Origin: Mesoaciditoga lauensis cd-1655R = DSM 25116
Lineage (GTDB): Bacteria > Thermotogota > Thermotogae > Mesoaciditogales > Mesoaciditogaceae
Reading direction: 5' to 3'
Length of the DNA stretch: 64,000 nucleotides
NCBI RefSeq assembly: GCF_000745455.1
Contig: NZ_JQJI01000008.1
Location: 1 to 64,000, forward strand
Each line of letters opens with the position of its first letter. The stretch's first letter is position 1. Positions 31,965-45,840 of this stretch are shown in pieces. The notes below the pieces were generated by a model that saw nothing but the letters and a program-made list of their open reading frames with translations, had not been told where the DNA came from and made no database searches. The position numbers were made by a program, and so were the translations under genes.

Positions 31965-33524
31965 TTGAAGATCTTATGGCGTGTGTTAGTATCGCTAATT
32001 GTATTTGTAATGATATACTTCATTTCCATCTACATCTTCTCTCCAGGCGGGCAACCTCTCGAAAGATGGCAATTGTCTTTTGAAGGAAAGAAAGAATTTG
32101 TTCGCATGCCCTTTAAGGTAAAGACAAAACATCCAAAACTGCTGACGTTTACAACCACTTTTGAAGGAAAAGCGGGAGATACGCTCGTTTTTCCGCAAGT
32201 TGATGGTGGAGGGTTTGTTGTTTATTTAAACGGTAAAGAGATCTACCAAACCGGAAATCTCAAAAACGGCACCGCAAACATATGGAATTCCCTCTTTTCG
32301 ATTCCACTTTCGGGTTATTTAAAAAACGGGGAAAATGTGCTAAAAGTAAAAGTCTTCGCTCTTTACAACGGCGGCCTCGCCGCAGCGCCTTACATAGGAT
32401 GGCGTTCGCAAATAGAAAGAAAAATTTTAGCGACGAAGTTTTTGAAATCTCAAATCACTTTGGTTGTTATGGGAATGGCAATAGCCTTAGGTGTGATACT
32501 GACTTCGCTGGCATTTATGGACGATAGAAACAGAAGAAGGTATTTCGTCATAGGAATGGCAGCGTTTTTTATGTCTCTCTACTTAATCGATCTGCAGTAT
32601 TGGAACGTCAGCAACGTTTCAACCTACTTGCTTTTTAGAAAACTCTTCTTGATTTCTTTGTACATGTCCGTTTTTCTTTTCTTTGATGGAATGGAAAGAA
32701 ATTTATTTACGGAATTGAAGCTCTCAAAGCCATTCCTTGCCGTGATGATAGGCGTATCCGTTTGTGTTTTCATTCAGCCAACACCATTTTTGTTTAAAGA
32801 AGTACTGGGAGTGGGAACTTTATTTACCGTTGTATTGATCACCATTTCAGCGATAGAAGTTTACTGGCGGAAAAGGTATGAAATGATTTATCCATTGAGT
32901 TTGAGCATGGAAATCGCGATTTATGCCATTATCCTTGCTCTTAAGGGAAAACCAAACGCCTTTTTGATTCCATATGTGACAATGGCTCTAACTGCTGGTT
33001 TGGGAATAACGCTTGTTAAAGACTACGGCAGAACCTATTCCAACATGCTGATATCTCACAAGGCATCCTTGACAGATCCTCTGACAGGGGCGTTCAACAG
33101 GAATGTTTTAAAAGATTTAAGGCTTTCATCCCAAGATGTGATCGCCATGATAGACATGGATGCATTTAAAAAGCTTAACGACACCTTTGGCCATGAAAAG
33201 GGAGACGAAATGCTTAAGCTCTTTTGTAAGAAGAGTGAAGAGAATCTGAGAACTGGGGATTTCGTGATAAGATACGGGGGAGACGAATTCTTAATGATTT
33301 TGAGAGATTGCACGAGAAAGGATGCTGTTTCCATAGTTGAAAGGGTGAAAAAATCCTTCGAAAAAGAGGCCCTAAAATATAGGGTAACTTTTTCATACGG
33401 TGTCGAAAGGGTGGAAAAAAGCCTCGAGTGGGCTTTGTTAAGAGCTGATTCAAAAATGTACTCTATGAAAGAAAATCTTAAAAAATTCTCTAAGAAAAAG
33501 AGGTCACTCAAGGAATTTAGATAG
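31965..33524 (+). CDS. Membrane diguanylate cyclase with extracellular beta-sandwich and 7TM region
   Basis: This 519-residue protein makes cyclic di-GMP at the membrane. One N-terminal helix is followed by an exported domain of about 130 residues that looks like a carbohydrate-binding-type beta-sandwich (VYLNGKEIYQTGN, LKNGENVLKVKV). Seven hydrophobic segments follow (residues 155-350). The C-terminal GGDEF domain contains intact RYGGDEFL preceded by the RTGD inhibitory-site motif (RxxD five residues upstream), so product feedback inhibition is expected. The start is TTG 31965, seven bases after GAGGAG; GTG 31950 is also in frame. It converges on the DUF6062 gene with a 21-bp overlap. Confidence 0.88.
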   Translation: MKILWRVLVSLIVFVMIYFISIYIFSPGGQPLERWQLSFEGKKEFVRMPFKVKTKHPKLLTFTTTFEGKAGDTLVFPQVDGGGFVVYLNGKEIYQTGNLKNGTANIWNSLFSIPLSGYLKNGENVLKVKVFALYNGGLAAAPYIGWRSQIERKILATKFLKSQITLVVMGMAIALGVILTSLAFMDDRNRRRYFVIGMAAFFMSLYLIDLQYWNVSNVSTYLLFRKLFLISLYMSVFLFFDGMERNLFTELKLSKPFLAVMIGVSVCVFIQPTPFLFKEVLGVGTLFTVVLITISAIEVYWRKRYEMIYPLSLSMEIAIYAIILALKGKPNAFLIPYVTMALTAGLGITLVKDYGRTYSNMLISHKASLTDPLTGAFNRNVLKDLRLSSQDVIAMIDMDAFKKLNDTFGHEKGDEMLKLFCKKSEENLRTGDFVIRYGGDEFLMILRDCTRKDAVSIVERVKKSFEKEALKYRVTFSYGVERVEKSLEWALLRADSKMYSMKENLKKFSKKKRSLKEFR

Positions 33525-34154
33525 CATTTTCCACGCTTGTCCTTCTCTTGAGGTAAGTGGTTCGTGCGAAAATCTGTAATCGCTCTTTCTTATAAATTCT
33601 TCCATATCTTTTTTCAAGCGTGTCAATTTCTCTTTTTGAATTTTCATAAAGATGTTGAATTCAAATCCTTTTATCTCTCTAAGCATGTAAGTGTGCCGTA
33701 GGCATACCATAGATACAGATTGAGCGTATTTTTCCCTTCTATCGGGAAATGAGAAGAACTCGGAAAAAAGTTCAAGGTACCTCCGCTCTGCCTTTTTTTC
33801 AACTTCGCAAAGCTCACATCCATCGCCAAATTTGCCATCTATTTCGTCTAAAGCTTTCTCTATGTAATCAAAAAGATCGTGATAAAGAATGTTCACTCCG
33901 AGTATTCCAAGTTCCGGGTGCGCATTAAGGTGGTTTTCTACCATTTTCAAATGTTTGGGGCAAAAACCATGGCCTTTCACGAAGTTCGTGCGTTCAACCG
34001 GATCGTTCACATTCTCATAAAAGAGGGCATCTATGTAATCGTGAACGGCTTTATCCGTCAACGAGCAGATCGGGCATCCGATCACGTTCATCTTTTCGTC
34101 TATTTGACCTATCAAATACTCGCTTTTGTAATTTTGAGTTTTCTTACTGAACAT
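33504..34154 (-). CDS. DUF6062 family protein with duplicated CxxC-CxxH motif
   Basis: This 216-residue soluble protein is of the DUF6062 type (function unknown). It has two similar halves, each with CxxC then CxxH: CPIC near residue 27 with CPKH near 64, and CELC near 113 with CLRH near 152. Such a pattern could bind zinc or an iron-sulfur cluster. The gene starts only 27 bases after the last gene of the fluoride-riboswitch Ehr operon, on the same strand, and may be its seventh gene. That is notable because the complex itself lacks its usual metal ligands. Confidence 0.75.
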   Translation of the reverse strand: MFSKKTQNYKSEYLIGQIDEKMNVIGCPICSLTDKAVHDYIDALFYENVNDPVERTNFVKGHGFCPKHLKMVENHLNAHPELGILGVNILYHDLFDYIEKALDEIDGKFGDGCELCEVEKKAERRYLELFSEFFSFPDRREKYAQSVSMVCLRHTYMLREIKGFEFNIFMKIQKEKLTRLKKDMEEFIRKSDYRFSHEPLTSREGQAWKMLSKFLE

Positions 34155-34181: not shown

Positions 34182-36053
34182 CTATCTTACCATAAAGAAA
34201 ATAAGAACAAACACCGCGAGTATGTACAAAATGTAAGAGTAAACGTGACCGTTCATCAAGGTTCTTGAAAGCGCTAAAGATGTTGCCCTGGCACCCACCA
34301 AAATTCCAGTGTACATATCTTGAACGACATCCTTGACACGTACGTACCTTTTATTCTTCTCTTTGACCTCTTTTGTGGCGTAAACTTTTCTCAAGATGTA
34401 TTCAAGCGTGAAAGAATAAGCCGGTGCACTGAAATATTCCACTTCTCTTAGCACCTCTCCACCATTCCAGGCATCCACTCTTTTTACCTTTTTGCCCTTT
34501 GCAAGGTAAAATATCAGCGGGAATACTCCAAGCACTCCAAGCACCACCGCTAAGAACGTTGGCGACACAACACCAAATATGGGATGAGAAGAAAGTATGA
34601 GATAAGGCTTTGGAACTCCCAAAAGTCCAGAAAGAAATTCTTTGTATCCGAAGAATCTAACAACCAGTGGAGATAAAAATCCTGCCACTGCGATCACAAA
34701 AACCAAAATGATTTCCGCCAAATTCATGTTGAAATGCGGTATTTTTTTTGCACGTTTTCCGTGATCGTATCCTAAAGCGGTGTAACCAGCTAGCTTAACC
34801 ATTGAAAATGCCGCCATTCCCATGGCAAGAGCTAACAGAATACCAATGAAAGCCGCTGTAATTCTCGCCGTCATGGACGGTATCTTATACGATTGAAATA
34901 ACGTTTCAAGTGTCATCCATTCGGCAACGTATCCGATAAGTGGAGGAAAAACGGAAAAGGAGAGTGCGGATATCACTATGGAAAAGGCAGGAATTTTTCC
35001 CACAGCTTTCCAAACACCGCGCACGTTATCAATGCTTTCTTCATTTAAAGCTTCCTTCGCATGCCCAACAGCTAAAAATAGAAGCGTTTTGGTAATTACA
35101 TGGGAAAAAGTCAAGATTAAAGTGGTTAACATTGCAAATTCTCCCAACACGTTAATGTGAAAGGCAAAAGCTGTGATGGATAATCCTAACGTTGCTAAGA
35201 TTGTTCCGTCGTTTTCAACCGTAGAATAAGCAGGTAATATTTTCAAACCTTTTGCCGCCACGGCTTGCAAAGCACCCCAAAATGCAGAGGTGCCTCCAAA
35301 GACCATTGCCATTATCCCCCACCATTCAGGTCTACCGGATATGGATAGAGCTCTCGTCAATCCATAGACTCCCATTAATGTCAAAGGAGCACTTAAAAAT
35401 GCAGAAACATTTGACGGCGCTTTTGAATGGGCACCTATTAGCCAAGTGTGTAAAGGAAAAATGCCCATTTTAGTCATAAACGCTATTGTAGCCATAAGCA
35501 AAAAAATCCATGTTCCGTGCACTCCAACAAGTGAAAATGAGTGGTTCTTAAAGTAAAGTGATGCAAAAGCAATAAGCAGTGTGATCGTAGAGACTTCGCC
35601 AAATGCGAGAAATTCGAACGCTTCTTTGAAAGAATGTTTATGCTCCATTATCAGTAAATATGAAAAAATTGTGGCTATTTCCCACCCAATTATGAAAGTT
35701 ATCGCGTCTTTTGCTATTAAAACCATAAACATTCCTAAAAAAGCAGTGTTTAAAAAAATAGGCATTTTTTTGGAATAGTTTACGCCGTAATCTATCGAGT
35801 ACAAAGTGATAGCAAACCAGGATATAGATGCTATTAGCAGAAAAATGGCACTCGTGTGATCTATTCCTATACTCAATTCAAATCCATCAAAAATCTTGTA
35901 TATTCCAGACGAGAAAGGTGCGTTCAACCCTACAATTGACGTGATGAACGCCAAAACAGACGCACACGTTGCCATAAGATAGCTTGTCTTCTTCCAAAAT
36001 GTGATGAGTGCCCCAAACGCAAAAAACAAGAATGTAAAGTACATAAAGTTCAT
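34182..36053 (-). CDS. Antiporter-like subunit of Ehr complex (HyfB/NuoL family)
   Basis: This 623-residue polytopic membrane protein of the Mrp-antiporter/NuoL/HyfB family has about 14-16 hydrophobic segments. The proton-translocation core has IGWEIATIFSYLLIMEHKHS and MTKMGIFPLHTWLIGAHSKA, keeping the conserved Lys and His. A C-terminal soluble stretch (KRVDAWNGGEV, as in HyfB) is followed by a last helix. In the family it moves H+ or Na+ across the membrane, driven by the redox subunits. It is the last of six operon genes behind the fluoride riboswitch at 40766; its ATG is next to the stop of the NuoB-like gene. Confidence 0.88.
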   Translation of the reverse strand: MNFMYFTFLFFAFGALITFWKKTSYLMATCASVLAFITSIVGLNAPFSSGIYKIFDGFELSIGIDHTSAIFLLIASISWFAITLYSIDYGVNYSKKMPIFLNTAFLGMFMVLIAKDAITFIIGWEIATIFSYLLIMEHKHSFKEAFEFLAFGEVSTITLLIAFASLYFKNHSFSLVGVHGTWIFLLMATIAFMTKMGIFPLHTWLIGAHSKAPSNVSAFLSAPLTLMGVYGLTRALSISGRPEWWGIMAMVFGGTSAFWGALQAVAAKGLKILPAYSTVENDGTILATLGLSITAFAFHINVLGEFAMLTTLILTFSHVITKTLLFLAVGHAKEALNEESIDNVRGVWKAVGKIPAFSIVISALSFSVFPPLIGYVAEWMTLETLFQSYKIPSMTARITAAFIGILLALAMGMAAFSMVKLAGYTALGYDHGKRAKKIPHFNMNLAEIILVFVIAVAGFLSPLVVRFFGYKEFLSGLLGVPKPYLILSSHPIFGVVSPTFLAVVLGVLGVFPLIFYLAKGKKVKRVDAWNGGEVLREVEYFSAPAYSFTLEYILRKVYATKEVKEKNKRYVRVKDVVQDMYTGILVGARATSLALSRTLMNGHVYSYILYILAVFVLIFFMVR

Positions 36054-36054
36054 T

Positions 36055-36513
36055 TCAATCAGTCCTTCCAGCTATTTTCAAGAGTGTTCCTAGCATTTCG
36101 GATGCCGTTGGACAGCCATCCATAACTGCAACCACGTTTGGAAGATTCAATTTTTCCGGATCTGTTCCAGTTTCTTCGCATCCTTTTATCAGCATGATTC
36201 CAAACGGAGTCGGAAGCTGCCTGATGGTTTCTTTCAACGGCGCTATCATCTTTTTCGTGGGCCTTCCAAGGACGATCAAAAGGTCTGCGTGCCTTGGAGA
36301 AGCGGCAAAATAGATGCCAAATCGATGAATGTTGTAACGCGGCGTGTGTAACGCGTGAATTTCAAAGTTGAGTTGATTTGAATTTCCCACGTCTATCATG
36401 TAGAGATGTAGCGATCTTTTGAAAAGACCAAGTTTTTGGGCTTCGTGCTTCGATTCGTACTTTTCTTTTTCAGTCAGCATTTTTGACATGCCAACAACTG
36501 GCCACCATTTCAT
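36055..36513 (-). CDS. NuoB/HycG-like subunit lacking two N2-cluster cysteines (EhrS-type)
   Basis: This 152-residue homologue of the small subunit of group 4 hydrogenases and of NuoB normally holds the N2 [4Fe-4S] cluster. The fold is clear from LHALHTPRYN-type and FAASPRHADLLIVLGRPTKK segments. The usual CxGC pair, expected at residues 46-49, reads NQLN. Two later cysteines remain (KGCEETG and MDGCPT). A normal cluster is therefore unlikely. The start is ATG 36513, eight bases after AGGAGG; an upstream open frame reaches 36555 inside the neighbouring gene. It is translated right after the NuoD-like partner. Confidence 0.82.
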   Translation of the reverse strand: MKWWPVVGMSKMLTEKEKYESKHEAQKLGLFKRSLHLYMIDVGNSNQLNFEIHALHTPRYNIHRFGIYFAASPRHADLLIVLGRPTKKMIAPLKETIRQLPTPFGIMLIKGCEETGTDPEKLNLPNVVAVMDGCPTASEMLGTLLKIAGRTD

Positions 36514-36535
36514 TTTCATATCCTCCTCATCTTCC

Positions 36536-37774
36536 TCATCTCGCCGCGTCCGCAAAATTCACGCCGTACGATTCAACCGCAAATGGAAAGTCGGTGAAGA
36601 TGTTAGAACGCATCGAATGAGCAGTGGCAGCGAATCCAAAAACGGACGGCGTGCTAACGTACAGATTTTTTATCTTGCCGTTAGTTATGTCAAGGCGATA
36701 AACCACACTCCCGCTAGGTGACTCACAAGCTCCAAGTCCTTCACCATCACGGATTTCAAAAACCGTCTTGTTTTCCTGATCCTCAAATCCACTGAGCATT
36801 TTGGTTATGAGCTTTGCGCTTTGCATGATTTCGTGGGCCCTCACTTCCATTCTTGAAAGCGAATCGCCTTCTTCATCTGTAACGGGAATGAAATTGGAAT
36901 AAACTTCTTCATTCACCCTCAAATCTTCTTCAACGTTGCAAGCTCTCAAAGCGGGACCGGTAAGCCCAATCTTTTGGGCACTCTCGGCATCGAGAATTGC
37001 CGTTGAATGTAACCTGTCTATGTAATTTCTACTCGTTAGAGAATGCTCAAATAATTTTTCGAATTCGAATGAAACCTTTTTGATCCTTTGAGATACTTCT
37101 TTCAGCGCTTGTTTGTCTGGAACAATACTCACTCCACCTATTTTTACAAAGTCCCGCAAGAAGCGTGAATTCGAGAAAAGCCCGTTTATCCGCAAAAGAT
37201 CTTCAAAGAGGCCCTGAAGATGAGAAGCTAAAACAAGCTGAGCGGCTGCCGAAGCCAACCTGGAAATCACATACATGTGGTTGTACATTCTTTCCAATTC
37301 CAAAGCGACAGTCCGCAAAACTTCTATATCGAACGGAAGTTTTATTTTGCACGCGTTTTCTACAGCACGTGCATATGCCAAAGCATGGGAAACACCAAAG
37401 TTCCCACAGATAGATTGTGCCATTTTCAAGCCTTCTTCAACGCTTTTTCCGTTCATGCCAACATCTATTTCTCGTCGTTTGTAAGACGTGTCGATTTTGA
37501 CCTGCAATATCCTTTCACCATACGTGAAGAGATGATAAACGCCGGCTTCACCAACGCCAGATGTGACAGGACCATACCTGAAATCGAAAACACCTTCGCC
37601 CGTGACATCTTCTTCACTTTCAAGAGGGTCTTTTACGATCGTATCTCTGTTTCGTATGAGTTTGGCATTTTCAAAATCGTCCGCGTTTCCATCTTCAACA
37701 AACACCTTTCCGTTTTCTTGAACGATCAAAAATTCTCTTCCATCTTTTTCATATATGCCAAGCAATTTTTTCAT
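36536..37774 (-). CDS. HycE/NuoCD-like large subunit lacking [NiFe] cysteines (EhrL-type)
   Basis: This 412-residue homologue of the group 4 hydrogenase large subunit has a short NuoC-like N-terminus and a NuoD-like body with ALELERMYNHMYVISRL. In true hydrogenases, nickel is bound by RxCGxC near the N-terminus and DPCxxC near the C-terminus. Here these read SICGNFGVSH (one cysteine left) and DFPFAVES (none). It cannot hold a normal [NiFe] site. It matches energy-converting hydrogenase-related (Ehr) proteins. Its ATG overlaps the stop of the upstream antiporter-like gene in ATGA. Confidence 0.85.
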   Translation of the reverse strand: MKKLLGIYEKDGREFLIVQENGKVFVEDGNADDFENAKLIRNRDTIVKDPLESEEDVTGEGVFDFRYGPVTSGVGEAGVYHLFTYGERILQVKIDTSYKRREIDVGMNGKSVEEGLKMAQSICGNFGVSHALAYARAVENACKIKLPFDIEVLRTVALELERMYNHMYVISRLASAAAQLVLASHLQGLFEDLLRINGLFSNSRFLRDFVKIGGVSIVPDKQALKEVSQRIKKVSFEFEKLFEHSLTSRNYIDRLHSTAILDAESAQKIGLTGPALRACNVEEDLRVNEEVYSNFIPVTDEEGDSLSRMEVRAHEIMQSAKLITKMLSGFEDQENKTVFEIRDGEGLGACESPSGSVVYRLDITNGKIKNLYVSTPSVFGFAATAHSMRSNIFTDFPFAVESYGVNFADAAR

Positions 37775-39156
37775 TTTATCATCCCCACAGAAAGCAGCTG
37801 GTTAATTTGAGGTACGAAGAAGATCACGAGAAAAGCCAATGAGGTGTTCACGATTGGAACGATGGTACCGACCCTCTTTCTCTCTGTTACAACAGTGTCT
37901 GTTGGTTTGGAAAAGACCATGGAACCAACTTTGTAGTTGATGCTGATAAAAGCCACCAACAAGAAAGAAATAACCAATAACGCGTAAAAGAGTGGGAAGT
38001 ACTTGAGAATTCCGTATATTATAAGCAATTCACCGATAAACGTTCCAAATGGAGGTGTACCTGTAACGGCTAACGCCGAAAAGAAAAGCGTGTAACCGGT
38101 AAATGGCATGCGTTGAGATACGCCTTTGACGTCTTCTATTTTCTTGCTTTTGTATCTCGCCAATATGTTTCCACTAAGGTAAAAGACGGATGATTTTGCA
38201 AACGCGTGTGAGAGAGCCAAAACAACTGCTCCTATAAAAGCGTACTTCCCTAACGATAAGCCTATAAGCATCATTCCCATGTTTTCCATCGTTGAATACG
38301 CGAAGAGCCTTTTGTAATTTCTTTGAACGATCATCAAAGTGGCCGCAGTTGCAACGGTAAGCAGGCCAAGCCAGAAGGCAAACTCCTTAACCATGCCCAC
38401 ATTCACTATTTGCATGATCCTCGCAACAGCGTATAAGGCTACGGCAAGTAGTATTCCAGAAAACGCCGCGCTAACCGGTGCCGGCGCTTTTCCATGCACG
38501 TCTGGCAGCCACGTGTGCATCGGGAAAATTCCCCCTTTGGTGCCATATCCTATTACGGCCATCATGGTGCCGAGAATCAATATCTTGTTCGTTTGGACGC
38601 CTTGCATCATTTGCTGAACGTTCAAAGTGTCTGTTACGCTGTAGATGAATATGTTCGCAAGCAAAGATATGATCAATCCAACGGAAACGATTATTATGTA
38701 CCTCCACGTCGCTTCAATGGAAGTCTCCGTGTTTTCAGTTGCAACCAACAGAGCACTCGTAACCGTTGTCGCTTCTATGCCAACCCAAATAAGGCCTAAA
38801 TCGTTTACAGAAACGGTAAAGAGCATGCTAAACGCGAATAAATTCATCAAGAAGTAATAAAAGTGCTTTTCGAATGACGGATTGTCTATGTATTTCATGT
38901 AAGTCGTGGAAAACGTTACCGTGCTTGCATATATCATGCTTACCATGATAAGCATTATCTTGGAAAGACCATCTATGTAAAGATAATGGTTTGTGTAAGA
39001 CGGTAAAAACACCATGATAAACGCCACCGCAACCGTGGAAAAGGCGGCTATGATTGAGACAACTTCCTCAAAATAAGTTTTCTTTACAAGACATAACAAC
39101 GAAGCAGCCAAAGTAAAGAACATCGGCAAAATGTAAATATAATTCATCGCTCTCAT
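37771..39156 (-). CDS. Antiporter-like subunit of Ehr complex (HyfF/HyfD family)
   Basis: This 461-residue membrane protein of the NuoM/HyfF type has about 14 hydrophobic segments. The core keeps GYGTKGGIFPMHTWLPDVHG and LVATENTETSIEATWRYIII, with conserved Lys, His and Glu. The start is ATG 39156, overlapping the stop of the HyfE-like gene, or ATG 39147, which is better spaced from AGAGG. It is a predicted H+ or Na+ translocating subunit and the third gene of the operon. Confidence 0.88.
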   Translation of the reverse strand: MRAMNYIYILPMFFTLAASLLCLVKKTYFEEVVSIIAAFSTVAVAFIMVFLPSYTNHYLYIDGLSKIMLIMVSMIYASTVTFSTTYMKYIDNPSFEKHFYYFLMNLFAFSMLFTVSVNDLGLIWVGIEATTVTSALLVATENTETSIEATWRYIIIVSVGLIISLLANIFIYSVTDTLNVQQMMQGVQTNKILILGTMMAVIGYGTKGGIFPMHTWLPDVHGKAPAPVSAAFSGILLAVALYAVARIMQIVNVGMVKEFAFWLGLLTVATAATLMIVQRNYKRLFAYSTMENMGMMLIGLSLGKYAFIGAVVLALSHAFAKSSVFYLSGNILARYKSKKIEDVKGVSQRMPFTGYTLFFSALAVTGTPPFGTFIGELLIIYGILKYFPLFYALLVISFLLVAFISINYKVGSMVFSKPTDTVVTERKRVGTIVPIVNTSLAFLVIFFVPQINQLLSVGMIK

Positions 39157-39788
39157 CCTCTCAGCTCATCGAACTCACCTACATCAGCAGATGAATCCTT
39201 CATCATTCTCACAACGACACCCGCTATGGCTATTATTCCTATAAGATCAAGCACGATACCTGCTTCAACTATAAAAGGCAAGCCCGGGAAAAGGTAACCC
39301 TCGAAAAGGAACAAGGCATTCTCCATCGTCATGTAGCCTATCAATTGAATGAAGGCGTTCCTTCGTGAAATTATGAGAAACGCACCTTGAAGAAGTAAAG
39401 CCATTGGAATCGAACCTTCAACCAAATGAATCGAATTGTAGAAGGTGACCCTGTAAAGAACGTAAGCAAAAACCACGATAAGCAGCGATATCACTATTGA
39501 CATGGCGGTGCTGACAACAGGTTTTATCTCCCTTTCTCTCCAATGATCTCTTACGATCCTTCGTTTCATGTACCAAGGAATGAAAAAGCCTCTCACAAAC
39601 GCGCTGATCAGGGATAAGGCTATAACGTAAGGGGAGTTTTGAACAATTCCCAGATAAAACAGGAAAAGTGCGATTATGTAGGAAGAAATGGAAAAAGTTG
39701 TGATTATCTTTTTTGTGTATATCTCCCATTGCATGAAAAGTACCATGAGAATCTCGAAAAAACCGACAAGTGCAAATGTTTCTCTCAT
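39153..39788 (-). CDS. HyfE-like membrane subunit of Ehr complex
   Basis: This 211-residue protein has about six hydrophobic segments and resembles HyfE (a NuoK-like core with extra helices). The C-terminal half, IQLIGYMTMENALFLFEGYL and VEAGIVLDLIGIIAIAGVVV, matches the NuoK-like region with its conserved Glu residues. It lies one base after the NuoH-like gene and overlaps the next by four bases. Confidence 0.82.
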   Translation of the reverse strand: MRETFALVGFFEILMVLFMQWEIYTKKIITTFSISSYIIALFLFYLGIVQNSPYVIALSLISAFVRGFFIPWYMKRRIVRDHWREREIKPVVSTAMSIVISLLIVVFAYVLYRVTFYNSIHLVEGSIPMALLLQGAFLIISRRNAFIQLIGYMTMENALFLFEGYLFPGLPFIVEAGIVLDLIGIIAIAGVVVRMMKDSSADVGEFDELRG

Positions 39789-39789
39789 C

Positions 39790-40740
39790 TCAAACCCTCC
39801 CCACGGTCGTGTAAAATGCCAGGAAACTCAAGAAAGCCAGAGAAAAGGCAAAGGCGAGATAATCGAAATTCTTGAACAGCCTGAACTTCGATATGCTCTC
39901 TTCGAAGAGTGCGATGCCTATCACAAGGCCCAACAATTTCAAGAAATGAACACCTGAATAAATGAAGACGGACAACAAGTTCAATTTCATTGGCACGAAG
40001 AAAGGCATGGTGTAAACGTTCAAAAAGACGCTCATGAGCAAGAATTTTTTCACGTATCCGCCCCATTTTTCGAAAGCCAGATCCATTCCGGAATACTCCA
40101 TGCTCATCCCTTGATCGATCATTCCAAGTTCCGCTGTTGAGTGTCTTTCTATTGGAAGGCGTCCAAGCTCCACTATGAGCACCATGAAGAAAGCGGCAGC
40201 CACAAACCAATGAGTCAACGAAAGGTACCACTTAGACGACGATTGCAGCACGTTGTTTATGACGTAAGGATTGTTCGTGCCAGAGATAACTCCAAGCATT
40301 ATGAATATCAAAACGGTTATGGGTTCTGCTAAAGCTCCCATGCTGGCCGCCCTTGACAAGCCCAAATGAGAATAATTGCTTCTGCTATCCAACGCTGCCA
40401 GTTTTTTAACAAGCGCCGCCGCGCCGAATATCAACCCACCGCCTATGAAGTCCACCGTAGGTCCAAATTGAAGTGGAAAAGCGGTTATGATTGGCAGTAC
40501 AAGCGTAAGCAAACTGTACATTGCAAAGCTCACGTAAGGCGCTCTGTGAAAGATAGGAGAAGAATGATTTGGGACTATTATCTCTTTTCTGAAAAGCTTG
40601 TAAAGATCGTAGTAAGGCTGAAAGATACTGGGGCCCTTTTTCGATTCGATTCTTTCTTCAATTTTGGATAAAATGCCAAATACAAGTGGAGATAAAAGTA
40701 GAACATATAGAAGCTGTACAACGCTTAAAAATACAAGCAT
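39790..40740 (-). CDS. NuoH/HyfC-like membrane subunit of Ehr complex
   Basis: This 316-residue membrane protein belongs to the NuoH/HyfC family, which joins the peripheral and membrane arms. It has eight hydrophobic segments and the conserved loops SKKGPSIFQPYYDLYKLFRK and ELGRLPIERHSTAELGMIDQ; the second differs from the usual PVDNPATHLELT form but keeps the Glu. Its ATG follows a T run and the GGAGG that also forms the terminator stem of the fluoride riboswitch. It is the first gene of the operon. Confidence 0.88.
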   Translation of the reverse strand: MLVFLSVVQLLYVLLLSPLVFGILSKIEERIESKKGPSIFQPYYDLYKLFRKEIIVPNHSSPIFHRAPYVSFAMYSLLTLVLPIITAFPLQFGPTVDFIGGGLIFGAAALVKKLAALDSRSNYSHLGLSRAASMGALAEPITVLIFIMLGVISGTNNPYVINNVLQSSSKWYLSLTHWFVAAAFFMVLIVELGRLPIERHSTAELGMIDQGMSMEYSGMDLAFEKWGGYVKKFLLMSVFLNVYTMPFFVPMKLNLLSVFIYSGVHFLKLLGLVIGIALFEESISKFRLFKNFDYLAFAFSLAFLSFLAFYTTVGRV

Positions 40741-40774
40741 AAAAAAACCTCCTATCCAGATTTTGGGTAGGAGT
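40741..40774 (-). terminator. Riboswitch expression platform: terminator overlapping ribosome-binding site
   Basis: CTCCTA (40773-40768) pairs with TAGGAG near 40752-40747, with extra CC/GG pairing, and is followed by seven T before the ATG. The 5' side shares bases with the aptamer pseudoknot strand ACTCC, so fluoride binding should block the hairpin. The 3' side is the ribosome-binding site GGAGG, so translation as well as transcription may be controlled. Confidence 0.75.
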
Positions 40775-40816
40775 CATCGGCCTTCGAAGGCTTTACGGCG
40801 AACTCCACCGCCGGTG
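40766..40816 (-). ncRNA. Fluoride riboswitch (crcB motif) of the Ehr operon
   Basis: On the minus strand the aptamer reads GGCGGTGGAGTTCGCC, then GTAAA, GCCTTCGAAGGC and CGATGACTCCTACC. These match the crcB motif: P1 (GGCG/CGCC), the loop-to-3' pseudoknot GGAGT (40806-40802) with ACTCC (40774-40770), and a hairpin GCC/GGC. The conserved GATGACTCCTAC end is present. This RNA family binds fluoride. It lies immediately before the NuoH-like gene. A TATAAT box at 40833-40828 fits a start near 40821. Confidence 0.88.
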
Positions 40817-41042
40817 TTTGTAAAGGATTATACGGAAAGCAAGTTAATTAAAGATTATTAGATATTAAACATTTGTTGTATGCGAATGAATTTTAGCTTC
40901 CCAAGAAAGCACTGCCAACAAAAATATATGGTTCTCATCAGTTTAGTGCGGGTAAAACATGCCGATTCTCTATTCTGTCTGTTGCTGTAGTTCTGAATAA
41001 AATCATTCCAAAATACCCTGTTGTCAAGTGAAAGAACAAGCA

Positions 41043-42689: not shown

Positions 42690-42718
42690 TTGAATCCGCA
42701 TTTCAAAAGTGGTAAAAT
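42690..42718 (+). promoter_or_regulatory. Promoter of the MutS-like operon
   Basis: TTGAAT (42690-42695) and TAAAAT (42713-42718) are 17 bases apart. Transcription would start at about 42725, exactly where the fluoride aptamer begins. Confidence 0.75.
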
Positions 42719-42723
42719 GAGAG

Positions 42724-42771
42724 AAGGAGATGAAGCTCTCCTTTAATGCTGATAGCAGCTGATGGCTTCTG
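42724..42771 (+). ncRNA. Fluoride riboswitch (crcB motif) of the MutS-like operon
   Basis: The aptamer reads GGAGATGAAGCTCTCC, TTTAA, TGCTGATAGCA, GCTGATGGCTTCT. P1 is GGAGA/TCTCC (42726-42730 with 42737-42741). The pseudoknot GAAGC (42732-42736) pairs with GCTTC (42765-42769). The inner hairpin is TGCT/AGCA with a three-base loop. The GCTGATGGC...CT end is as in the Thermotoga fluoride riboswitch. Every element of the crcB fold is present. Confidence 0.9.
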
Positions 42772-42792
42772 AAAAGAATGCCATCATTTTTT
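42760..42792 (+). terminator. Riboswitch-controlled intrinsic terminator
   Basis: TGATGGCTTCT (42760-42770) pairs with AGAATGCCATCA (one bulged T), loop GAAA, followed by TTTTTT. The 5' half contains the pseudoknot strand GCTTC of the aptamer, so ligand binding and terminator formation exclude each other. This is the standard fluoride ON switch. Confidence 0.9.
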
Positions 42793-42821
42793 ATGCGGTG
42801 GAAGAAAAAGGAGGCTTGACT

Positions 42822-44378
42822 TTGGCCTTTGAGAGCATTTTGTTTAAAACATTTAAAACCTCCCAGACAAACGGCAAATTGGAAATGCCAGACTTCTTTC
42901 ATGATTTAAATATAGATCAGATCGTAAACTCGCTTGTGGGATTTAAGGGAGAATACAACTTGAGGGATTTTTTTTACATCATTCCAACAGATGTTGAAGA
43001 GATAAAATATCGCCAAGAGATCATGAAAGATCTGGAAAACAAGAACGTTTTCTCCGTAATAGATGAATTTGCCATGAAGATGCGCAAAAGCCGCCTTTAC
43101 AAATCTTACAGTGATAAACTGACTTTGAATTATCAAAAGGAAAGATGGTTTGTCGATGCGGTAGATGTTTACGTGAAAGCCGTAAAGGAATTGCTTGAAA
43201 GACTGGAAAATGTTGATTTGAAATCTCAAGGGCTTATCCAATTCAGAGAATATTTAGAATCTTATGTGAACTCAAACAAATTCATGGAACTCTTTTCACA
43301 AACGCAAGAAGTCCTTTCAAAGCTTTCCCGCATCAAATACACGCTTTTGATAAAAGAAAACAAAGTTAAAGTTCAGAAATACAATGGTGAAAAAGACTAC
43401 GCGTCTGAAGTCCTGAAAACGTTTGAAAGATTTAAGCAAGGAGCCGTTAAAGATTACACAGTTGAATTCGATGAATCTATGGATATGAACGGTGTTGAAG
43501 AGAAAGTGCTGGACTTGGTGGCAAAGCTGTATGAGGAAGAATTTTCGGATTTGGAAAGATTTTACGGCGTAAATGCCTCTTACATCGATAAAACAATTTC
43601 AAGGTTTGATAGAGAAATTCAGTTCTACGTCACCTATTTAGAATACATAGAGCCATTGAAAAAAGGTGGACTAGATTTTTGTTATCCAGAGTTTACCACT
43701 TCAAAAGAGATATACGCAAAGGATGCTTTTGATTTGGCGCTGGCTTTCAAATTACACAGAGAGAGTTTAAGAGTGGTGAGCAACGATTTTTACTTGAATG
43801 ATCCTGAAAGGATCATAGTCGTTACTGGTCCAAATCAAGGCGGAAAAACGACATTCGCACGCATGTTTGGGCAAGTGCATTATCTTGCAAAGATGGGTTA
43901 CCCCATACCTGCAAGTAAAGCGCGACTCTTTTTGTTCGACAACATATTTACCCATTTTGAAAAAGAGGAAAAGATAGGGAATCTCCGCGGAAAATTGGAA
44001 GACGATTTGATAAGAATAAGAAATATCTTGGATAAGGTCTCTAAAGATAGCATCGTAATAATGAACGAGATCTTTTCTTCCACAACTCTTGAAGACGCGA
44101 AATTTTTAGCCAAAAAAGTCATGGAAGAGATAATGAAAAAGGATTCCATCGCCCTATTGGTCACCTTTATGTACGAGTTATCTGAATTGAATGAAAAAAC
44201 GGTTAGTATGGTGAGCACCGTTTCTGAAACAAATCCAGAGATGAGAACGTACAAGATTTTAAGAAGACCATCGGACGGACTTTCATATGCCGTTTCATTG
44301 GCAAAAAAATACGGCCTCACTTACGAGCAGTTGAAAAAGAGGGTGAAAGATGAAAGTTTTTCTGATGCACGAAGATAA
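42822..44378 (+). CDS. MutS-related ATPase protein 1 (no mismatch-recognition domain)
   Basis: This 518-residue protein has MutS core/lever helices and a C-terminal MutS ATPase domain. Walker A is VTGPNQGGKTT near residue 350, the Walker B region IVIMNEIFSSTT. There is no N-terminal mismatch-recognition domain with its FxE motif, so it is not classical MutS; such MutS-like proteins are known downstream of fluoride riboswitches, with unknown roles. The start is TTG 42822, seven bases after AAGGAGG; the open frame starting at 42762 would begin inside the riboswitch. It overlaps the next gene by 29 bases. Confidence 0.85.
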   Translation: MAFESILFKTFKTSQTNGKLEMPDFFHDLNIDQIVNSLVGFKGEYNLRDFFYIIPTDVEEIKYRQEIMKDLENKNVFSVIDEFAMKMRKSRLYKSYSDKLTLNYQKERWFVDAVDVYVKAVKELLERLENVDLKSQGLIQFREYLESYVNSNKFMELFSQTQEVLSKLSRIKYTLLIKENKVKVQKYNGEKDYASEVLKTFERFKQGAVKDYTVEFDESMDMNGVEEKVLDLVAKLYEEEFSDLERFYGVNASYIDKTISRFDREIQFYVTYLEYIEPLKKGGLDFCYPEFTTSKEIYAKDAFDLALAFKLHRESLRVVSNDFYLNDPERIIVVTGPNQGGKTTFARMFGQVHYLAKMGYPIPASKARLFLFDNIFTHFEKEEKIGNLRGKLEDDLIRIRNILDKVSKDSIVIMNEIFSSTTLEDAKFLAKKVMEEIMKKDSIALLVTFMYELSELNEKTVSMVSTVSETNPEMRTYKILRRPSDGLSYAVSLAKKYGLTYEQLKKRVKDESFSDARR

Positions 44379-45840
44379 GGATTTTGATTTACAAAGGAAA
44401 ATGCCTCAATGGAAAGAAGTCGTTCAAGATCTAGAGTTAAACGTTCTTTTTGATGCAATGGCAAAAGAAGATGATTTCTTTAGGGAAGTTTCAGAAGCAG
44501 CCATCCTTTCTCCGTTATCAGATGTTAAAAGCATCTTGTACCGACAGGAAATTTTAAAAGATTGTTTGGCCAATCCTTCTTTAATAAAGGAAATGTACGA
44601 TATATCTTTGGAGTCTTTTGATGTTGAGAAAAACACCTTCTTCGGTTTTTTCAGCAGGTATCCTATTGGCATGCTTGACAGTTCTGTAAAAGCCATGACA
44701 ATGCTCGTTAAGACGCTTAAAAAACTCCGAAATATCGCAGATGAAAAATCTGGAAAATTCCATTCTAAAGGCTTCAAAAGATTCTTTAACATGGTAAAGA
44801 ATGAACTGAGTGATGAGTATTTTGAAGAAGTTGAGAAGCATCTGGAAACTTTGGAATTCAAAAATGGCATGTTGATAAGCGCTGACCTTGGAATGGGAAA
44901 CAAAGGAGTAAATTACACCTTACGTAAGCCAAACGAAGAGAAAAAACGATGGATTTCTAAGATCTTTTCAAAGAGAGAGGAAGAATTCACCTTCCGCATA
45001 GCTGAAAGAGATCAAAATGGTGCAAAAGCTTTATCTAATCTAAAAGAAAGAGGAATAAATTCCGTTGCAAATGCGCTTACTCAATCCGTCGATCACATTC
45101 TTAGTTTTTTCACCGTCTTGAAAACTGAACTTGCTTTTTATTTGGCCGCGATGAACCTTTATGACTCTTTAGAAAGGTTGGGGGAGCCTTTATCTTTTCC
45201 GGTACCACATGATATTGGAACCTCGATACATGAATTCAAATGTTTGTACGATCCTTCTCTGGCGCTAACCCTAAACAAGAAAGTTATTGGAAATGACCTA
45301 AAGGCAAATGGTAAAAATCTCTTTGTGATAACAGGCGCCAACAGGGGAGGAAAATCCACGTTTTTAAGAAGCATCGGAATTGCACAGTTGATGATGCAGA
45401 GCGGTATTTTTGCTCCCGCAGAACATTTCTCTTCAAGCATATCGAAAAAGATCTTCACCCATTACAAAAGGAAAGAAGATGAAAAGATGGAGAGCGGAAA
45501 ATTCGATGAGGAGTTGAGGAGAATGAATAAAATAGCCACCGATCTCGTGCCGCATTCAATGGTTCTATTCAACGAATCGTTTTCCGCAACGAATGAAATA
45601 GAAGGCTCTGAAATAGCAAAGGAAGTTGTTTTGGCCCTTAAAGAGAAAGACGTTGAAGTGTTTTTCGTCACTCACATGTACGAATTCGCTCATTCCATGT
45701 ATGAAAAGCATTTTGATGATGCTATCTTCTTGGTAGCCGAACGTTTAGAAGACGGCAACCGCACTTTCAAAATAAAAGAAGGAAAGCCTTTGCAAACAAG
45801 CTTTGGTATCGATCTGTACGAGCGTTTATTCGAAAAATGA
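44350..45840 (+). CDS. MutS-related ATPase protein 2
   Basis: This 496-residue paralogue of the preceding protein has the same plan: helical core, then a MutS-type ATPase with VITGANRGGKSTFLRS near residue 330 and MVLFNESFSATNEIEGSE. It also lacks the mismatch-recognition domain. The start is ATG 44350, seven bases after GAGGG, inside the end of gene 1, so the two are coupled and may form a heterodimer, as MutS-family ATPases work as dimers (inference). It is controlled by the same fluoride riboswitch. Confidence 0.85.
   Translation: MKVFLMHEDKDFDLQRKMPQWKEVVQDLELNVLFDAMAKEDDFFREVSEAAILSPLSDVKSILYRQEILKDCLANPSLIKEMYDISLESFDVEKNTFFGFFSRYPIGMLDSSVKAMTMLVKTLKKLRNIADEKSGKFHSKGFKRFFNMVKNELSDEYFEEVEKHLETLEFKNGMLISADLGMGNKGVNYTLRKPNEEKKRWISKIFSKREEEFTFRIAERDQNGAKALSNLKERGINSVANALTQSVDHILSFFTVLKTELAFYLAAMNLYDSLERLGEPLSFPVPHDIGTSIHEFKCLYDPSLALTLNKKVIGNDLKANGKNLFVITGANRGGKSTFLRSIGIAQLMMQSGIFAPAEHFSSSISKKIFTHYKRKEDEKMESGKFDEELRRMNKIATDLVPHSMVLFNESFSATNEIEGSEIAKEVVLALKEKDVEVFFVTHMYEFAHSMYEKHFDDAIFLVAERLEDGNRTFKIKEGKPLQTSFGIDLYERLFEK

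Follow-up and report, generated by a model that had tools for sequence, protein, structure and literature searches.

The Ehr operon and its leader

The window, i.e., the whole 64,000-nucleotide stretch analysed, comes from a member of the Mesoaciditogaceae (Thermotogota) and carries on its minus strand a six-gene Ehr operon in the order B-C-D-L-S-A. The features of the locus are as follows.

40827..40832, minus strand: TATAAT, probable -10 box of the leader promoter, read directly (a consensus match only)
40761..40821, minus strand: fluoride riboswitch aptamer (RF01734) of the Ehr leader; Rfam 44.4 bits against a gathering score of 34, E 1e-8
40741..40773, minus strand: terminator-like expression platform consisting of a CUCCUA x UAGGAG stem (-11.5 kcal/mol), U7 and AUG
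39790..40740, minus strand: ehrB (HyfC/HycD/NuoH-like); PF00146 1.6e-28, 7z0s_D 8e-29
39153..39788, minus strand: ehrC (HyfE-like); NF008556 3.9e-12, position conserved in all loci
37771..39156, minus strand: ehrD (HyfF/antiporter-like) with TM5 Glu, TM7 Lys, TM8 Lys and TM12 Glu; PF00361 2.4e-53, NF005042 9e-124
36536..37774, minus strand: ehrL, large subunit of 412 aa with one of four NiFe cysteines left and NIFTDFPF at the former DPCxxC site; alignments, model pLDDT 90
36055..36555, minus strand: ehrS, NuoB-like, 166 aa as the longest ORF, with two of four N2 cysteines and no N-terminal ferredoxin motif; alignments, MbhJ/NuoB fold
34182..36053, minus strand: ehrA (HyfB/HycC-like antiporter subunit), channel Glu/Lys kept; PF00361 4e-28, 7z0s_C 6e-29
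33504..34154, minus strand: gene of a DUF6062 protein, 27 nt past ehrA; PF19538 3.6e-15
42717..42778, plus strand: second fluoride riboswitch, before two MutS-like genes; 40.7 bits, terminator-like arm GATGGC/GCCATC-U6
42762..45840, plus strand: two overlapping MutS_V genes (42762-44378 and 44350-45840); PF00488 1.8e-22 and 9.3e-22

All six subunits (A, B, C, D, L and S) are thus encoded in one operon, and L is homologous to the group 4 large subunits while lacking the NiFe ligands; the assignment to the Ehr group made in the sequence-only reading is thereby upheld. Comparison with relatives places the true start of ehrS probably at MKWWP, at about 36513. The DUF6062 gene, also situated directly 3' of ehrA in three loci of genus g2 (L048-L050), is probably co-transcribed with the operon. 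Gene content and profile searches revealed no ferredoxin-like gene (HyfA/HyfH/NuoI) within or beside the operon, which holds only the six Ehr genes, as had been claimed. No formate dehydrogenase gene was found among the operon genes, their content does not correspond to the MrpA-G set, and no redox partner gene occurs in the operon or among its conserved neighbours. The neighbours vary by clade, with the exception of fluoride genes and DUF6062.

The operon was present in 9 of the 10 Mesoaciditogaceae genomes examined, and the six genes lie together at every locus with sufficient flanking DNA. One genome of the family (G008, 91% complete, 3 contigs) has neither Ehr nor CrcB. Close matches come from Mesoaciditogaceae, followed by the 'Bacteroidetes' bins WY2/SKS5, Archaeoglobaceae, Thermococcus and Metallosphaera.

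In the Ehr leader, which reads ...GACUCCUACCCAAAAUCUGGAUAGGAGGUUUUUUU-AUG, all positions of the riboswitch model are covered and each modelled pair is a standard pair. UAGGAG, the pairing partner of the aptamer's 3' arm CUCCUA, doubles as the Shine-Dalgarno sequence and is followed by U7. Like arm pairing was found in most Mesoaciditogaceae leaders. Since the 3' arm is shared with the terminator stem, the aptamer fold and the terminator fold compete, as in the known fluoride-ON switch; the anatomy of the leader is as expected of an ON-type switch. A chance match to the riboswitch model was ruled out: only two matches above threshold, the Ehr leader and the MutS-pair leader, were found in the 2.17 Mb genome, one of them is separated from the ehrB start codon by 20 nt, and the arrangement recurs in independent lineages. 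At the second riboswitch the aptamer contains the first ATG of the MutS ORF, and translation probably begins downstream of this ATG.

Metal ligands, channel residues and selection

EhrL aligns to the solved MbhL (6cfw_L, E 8e-21) and HycE (7z0s_E) and is a group 4/NuoD-type large subunit, and EhrS aligns to MbhJ (6cfw_J, E 3e-13) and HycG as a NuoB-type subunit. The ORFs and the alignment with MbhL/HycE bear out the sequence-only reading, which had placed L and S in these positions, with SICGNFGVSH and DFPFAVES at the nickel sites. The loss of nickel ligands in L, claimed there, is true of three of the four: against RMCGICSFSH of MbhL, the first cysteine (C123) is retained, the second is replaced by Phe, and DFPFAVES occupies the C-terminal DPCxxC site. 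The last NiFe cysteine of the window is Ser in locus L006, where none of the four is left, and is missing in most archaea. NiFe ligands are lost in every examined member of the BCDLSA-type Ehr. In S, VGNSNQLNFE is present where the reference has SGSCNGCDIE. NQLN had been read as replacing the CxGC pair; both ligands are indeed lost, to Ser and Leu, but NQLN spans only the second, the first corresponding to the preceding Ser. The other two N2 cysteines are retained as KGC126 and DGC148 (DGC(P)). The proposed check by alignment with HycE/HycG and MbhL/MbhJ thus confirmed the ligand loss, and alignments of L and S with relatives contained no displaced but conserved cysteines. The L position aligned to the quinone-site Tyr of the NuoD loop, which we take to be Tyr87 of T. 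thermophilus, is Gly (ICGNFGVSH vs MDYLHSFAH).

The number of N2 cysteines in S varies among relatives. Three are found in L006 (genus g4), two in the window and in genus g3, and none in genus g2 (L048-L050), L007-L009 or the WY2/SKS5 bins. Archaeal S proteins have all four together with an N-terminal CPxxA...CxxCxxC ferredoxin-like motif, and both are retained in the Caballeronia and Burkholderia members of the BCDLSA type; electrons may accordingly have a part in the ancestral function. The N-terminal motif is gone in Mesoaciditogaceae. In M. branderi and Allomeiothermus, S lacks the N2 cysteines and keeps the motif; these losses are apparently separate from the others. In genus g2 and in WY2/SKS5, all four N2 cysteines and the motif have disappeared from a whole operon, while the riboswitch, the gene order and the channels are kept. 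As the earlier reading had proposed, a redox centre within the complex itself is very probably lacking, to judge from these alignments, and this redox-free state is probably derived. HypD (PF01924) was absent from the host genome, which is 99.96% complete, with a positive E. coli control; the NiFe cofactor could therefore not be made by the usual route.

The ion-channel residues, also claimed to be kept, are in place. In the alignments, D and A retain the TM5 Glu, TM7 Lys, TM8 Lys and TM12 Glu, a feature shared with the antiporter-like subunits of Mrp, and the NuoH-like B retains its acidic loop cluster. These residues persist even at loci with no N2 cysteine. Between the window and a sister genome, dN/dS was 0.03-0.16, indicating purifying selection. 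Wherever a contig end does not interrupt the locus, all six ORFs are intact in Mesoaciditogaceae, and 44 columns of L, among them NIFTDF where DPCxxC formerly stood, do not vary in sequences down to 31% identity. L is the fastest-evolving of the six subunits (67% vs 87% for B). Purifying selection and the invariant columns of L point to a maintained machine, not a ruin. The AlphaFold models have the fold of MbhJ/HycG/NuoB for S (pLDDT 80) and of HycE/NuoD/MbhL for L (pLDDT 90); being single-chain, they were used for fold only, and cofactor geometry is unreadable from them.

The same host has a separate, Mrp-linked Mbx-like complex (L021, G000:C3:38000-57900) whose NuoB homologue has all four N2 cysteines. 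Its NuoD and NuoB homologues served as a control, and its genes are followed by genes of NfnA/B-like flavoproteins.

Fluoride riboswitches and exporters across Ehr loci

Among BCDLSA-type (or rotated) Ehr loci with upstream DNA, 18 of 21 had a riboswitch above the gathering score upstream: seven in Mesoaciditogaceae, four in Thermococcus/Archaeoglobaceae, two in Metallosphaera (where the order is a rotated B-C-D-L-S-A), one in an SKS5 bin, and one each in Mycobacterium (M. branderi) and Caballeronia, along with two on Burkholderia plasmids. In M. branderi, one small gene lies between the riboswitch and the operon. The riboswitch of L006 is sub-threshold yet in place (27.4 bits), and in L007 and L008 the riboswitch reaches Ehr through a crcB-DUF190-Ehr unit. 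Upstream of ABCDLS- or SABCDL-type Ehr no riboswitch was found (0/7 loci). The association of riboswitch and gene order gave a Fisher p of 8e-7, or 4e-5 with near-duplicates thinned, these p-values ignoring shared ancestry. In the tree of L, the two Ehr types fall on either side of one branch (83/99).

The neighbours of the riboswitch-type Ehr include crcB, DUF190, pyrophosphatase, enolase and universal stress protein (Usp) genes. On two Burkholderia plasmids, one typed as conjugative, there are fluoride islands (L089, L090) with several fluoride riboswitches around Ehr, DUF190, pyrophosphatase, CrcB and dynamin-like genes. An acid-mine plasmid of Alicyclobacillus (L056) carries a lone riboswitch-led ehrL with no other Ehr subunits nearby and with CrcB genes close.

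Further riboswitch-led genes in Mesoaciditogaceae are the MutS pairs and, with weak matches, a MoxR-DUF58 operon and DUF6062. The leaders of the MoxR AAA ATPase operon (L078 at G000:C22:31374-31435; L065-L068, L071, L072, L077) score about 27-33 bits, sub-threshold, and occupy the same place in most Mesoaciditogaceae; each is probably a diverged true riboswitch. DUF6062, a CPxC-rich protein, has its own weak fluoride leader in two genomes of genus g3 (L070 = G014:C63, L076 = G015:C24) and is a candidate new protein of the fluoride regulon.

CrcB was found in none of the 10 Mesoaciditogaceae genomes, as against 43 of 93 other Thermotogota (p 0.005, ignoring relatedness), and is absent from both Metallosphaera genomes examined. 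The CLC proteins of Mesoaciditogaceae and Metallosphaera have the Cl-type motif GREGP and, in all but one, GSGxSGG. Fluc/CrcB and CLC-F therefore both appear absent from Mesoaciditogaceae and Metallosphaera, as judged by profiles and motifs only. In Metallosphaera and in an Archaeoglobaceae genome, no fluoride riboswitch other than the Ehr leader was found, and the Mesoaciditogaceae fluoride regulon showed no membrane transporter besides Ehr.

Possible function and known systems

Because the complex has lost its metal-holding parts and its genes follow a fluoride-sensing RNA switch, its role is probably ion transport against fluoride and acid stress, not that of a hydrogenase. The sequence-only reading was right about Ehr, the channels and the loss of redox sites; it saw only a ligand-less hydrogenase and missed the upstream riboswitch. 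This riboswitch, the ON-switch anatomy and the fluoride-resistance neighbourhoods of relatives make a role in fluoride/HF stress more likely than one in redox enzymology. Established by sequence are the gene content, the lost ligands, the retained channels, the anatomy of the leader and the distribution. From these we favour, with some confidence, a fluoride-induced Ehr complex in which a complex I/group 4 hydrogenase scaffold would no longer carry electrons and would act as a redox-independent ion translocator against HF/acid stress. Fluoride would enter the cell as HF and then release H+ and F-. Rising cytoplasmic F- would let the leader escape termination and free the Shine-Dalgarno sequence. 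The complex, as a gradient-driven, Mrp-like cation/H+ translocator, would restore pH and ion balance, L and S serving as a gate or coupling cap instead of a redox arm, and might possibly carry F- itself as well. Against such a redox-free translocator, members of the complex I family are thought to require redox energy for uphill pumping, the window retains two N2 cysteines and one NiFe cysteine, and Ehr complexes of the same type in archaea, Caballeronia and Burkholderia have four N2 cysteines with the ferredoxin-like motif.

The same evidence bears on the possibility, improbable in our view, that the complex still carries electrons, a cluster being held by the two remaining S cysteines with Ser/Asn or a partner protein and fed by an unlinked ferredoxin, a supply that archaeal Ehr may also use. 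Members with N2 and the motif, the three N2 cysteines of L006 and the redox coupling suspected for Ehr (PMC6349859) agree with this, but genus g2 and WY2/SKS5 keep riboswitch, gene order and channels with neither N2 cysteines nor motif, and the operon has no redox gene. It is hardly credible that Ehr is a formate hydrogenlyase by which fluoride is linked to formate fermentation with H2, although 'formate hydrogen lyase' is among the commonest fluoride-riboswitch genes and has been so interpreted (PMC2864571, PMC11139923); this identity was rejected, because the NiFe ligands are gone in all examined BCDLSA-type members, HypD is missing from a nearly complete genome and the operon genes include no formate dehydrogenase. 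Nor do the rapid evolution of L and the stepwise loss of cysteines make it more than very unlikely that a hydrogenase remnant is decaying by simple degeneration; the intact ORFs and the low dN/dS led to the rejection of this explanation, and the invariant L columns and the riboswitch retained throughout also oppose it.

A different role within fluoride defence, less likely than redox-independent ion translocation, would be export of fluoride by the Ehr complex itself (F-/H+ antiport or cation-coupled F- extrusion), in place of Fluc and CLC-F, in acidophiles. Ehr is the sole riboswitch target in Metallosphaera, which lacks CrcB; in Mesoaciditogaceae, CrcB is missing from 10/10 genomes, the CLC motifs are of the Cl type only, and Ehr is the sole membrane transporter observed in the regulon. 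However, Ehr adjoins crcB in other genomes, the absence of other exporters is based on profiles and motifs only, and to our knowledge no complex I-type subunit carries halide. Because CrcB accompanies Ehr in some carriers, Ehr need not be the only fluoride system of a cell. A passive Fluc, we infer, would be ineffective at a low or inverted membrane potential, and this would account for acidophiles without CrcB. It is conceivable, if doubtful, that a complex I-family machine moving ions without electron transfer is the principal fluoride-extrusion system of acidophiles lacking Fluc and CLC-F. If so, fluoride exporters would include a third class, and the complex I scaffold could be driven by something besides redox chemistry.

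The BCDLSA-type Ehr complex is probably what has been annotated as the 'formate hydrogenlyase' of the fluoride regulon. This identification would make inducer and phenotype (fluoride) directly testable and would amend an annotation repeated in reviews. It further points to a way in which acidophiles lacking known exporters may defend themselves against fluoride. A relative of complex I without redox centre yet under selection also offers a natural test of how far complex I ion transport can be separated from electron transfer.

Ehr complexes on record are those of M. tuberculosis (Rv0082-Rv0087), Sulfobacillus, comammox Nitrospira and Methylacidiphilum, and we take Geobacter EhrABCDLS to belong with them. 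Many Ehr have the N2 [4Fe-4S] cluster in S. The six-gene set, the lack of NiFe ligands and the antiporter-like subunits are shared by the complex described here. It differs in the further loss of N2 ligands and of the ferredoxin-like motif from S, and in having its operon under a fluoride riboswitch. Ehr without NiFe ligands was already known (PMC10284858, PMC10432482, PMC4378227), and a role in pH homeostasis has been suggested for Methylacidiphilum Ehr (PMC6688271). 'Formate hydrogen lyase' under fluoride riboswitches was likewise known (PMC2864571, PMC11139923), Na+/H+ antiporters are the next commonest fluoride-riboswitch class behind exporters, and HF entry acidifies the cytoplasm (PMC11139923). 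No link between Ehr and fluoride was found in the literature searched, which took in no subscription papers (Marreiros 2013 and Baker 2012 among these), and priority is not certain.

With the 'formate hydrogen lyase' of the fluoride regulon (crcB RNA), the operon shares the leader RNA and the annotation type; unlike a true formate hydrogenlyase, it has no NiFe site, HypD or operon-borne formate dehydrogenase. Group 4 [NiFe] hydrogenases (MBH, 6cfw; E. coli FHL, 7z0s) resemble it in the main subunits and in the fold of L and S, but here the NiFe site, N2 and the ferredoxin-like subunit are lost. The Mrp Na+/H+ antiporter has antiporter-like subunits without redox centres and the proposed ion exchange in common with Ehr, which differs in having NuoH-, NuoD- and NuoB-like subunits without MrpE/F/G, in a host where the Mrp-linked complex is separate (L021). 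Fluc/CrcB and CLC-F exporters share riboswitch control with Ehr, the proteins being unrelated.
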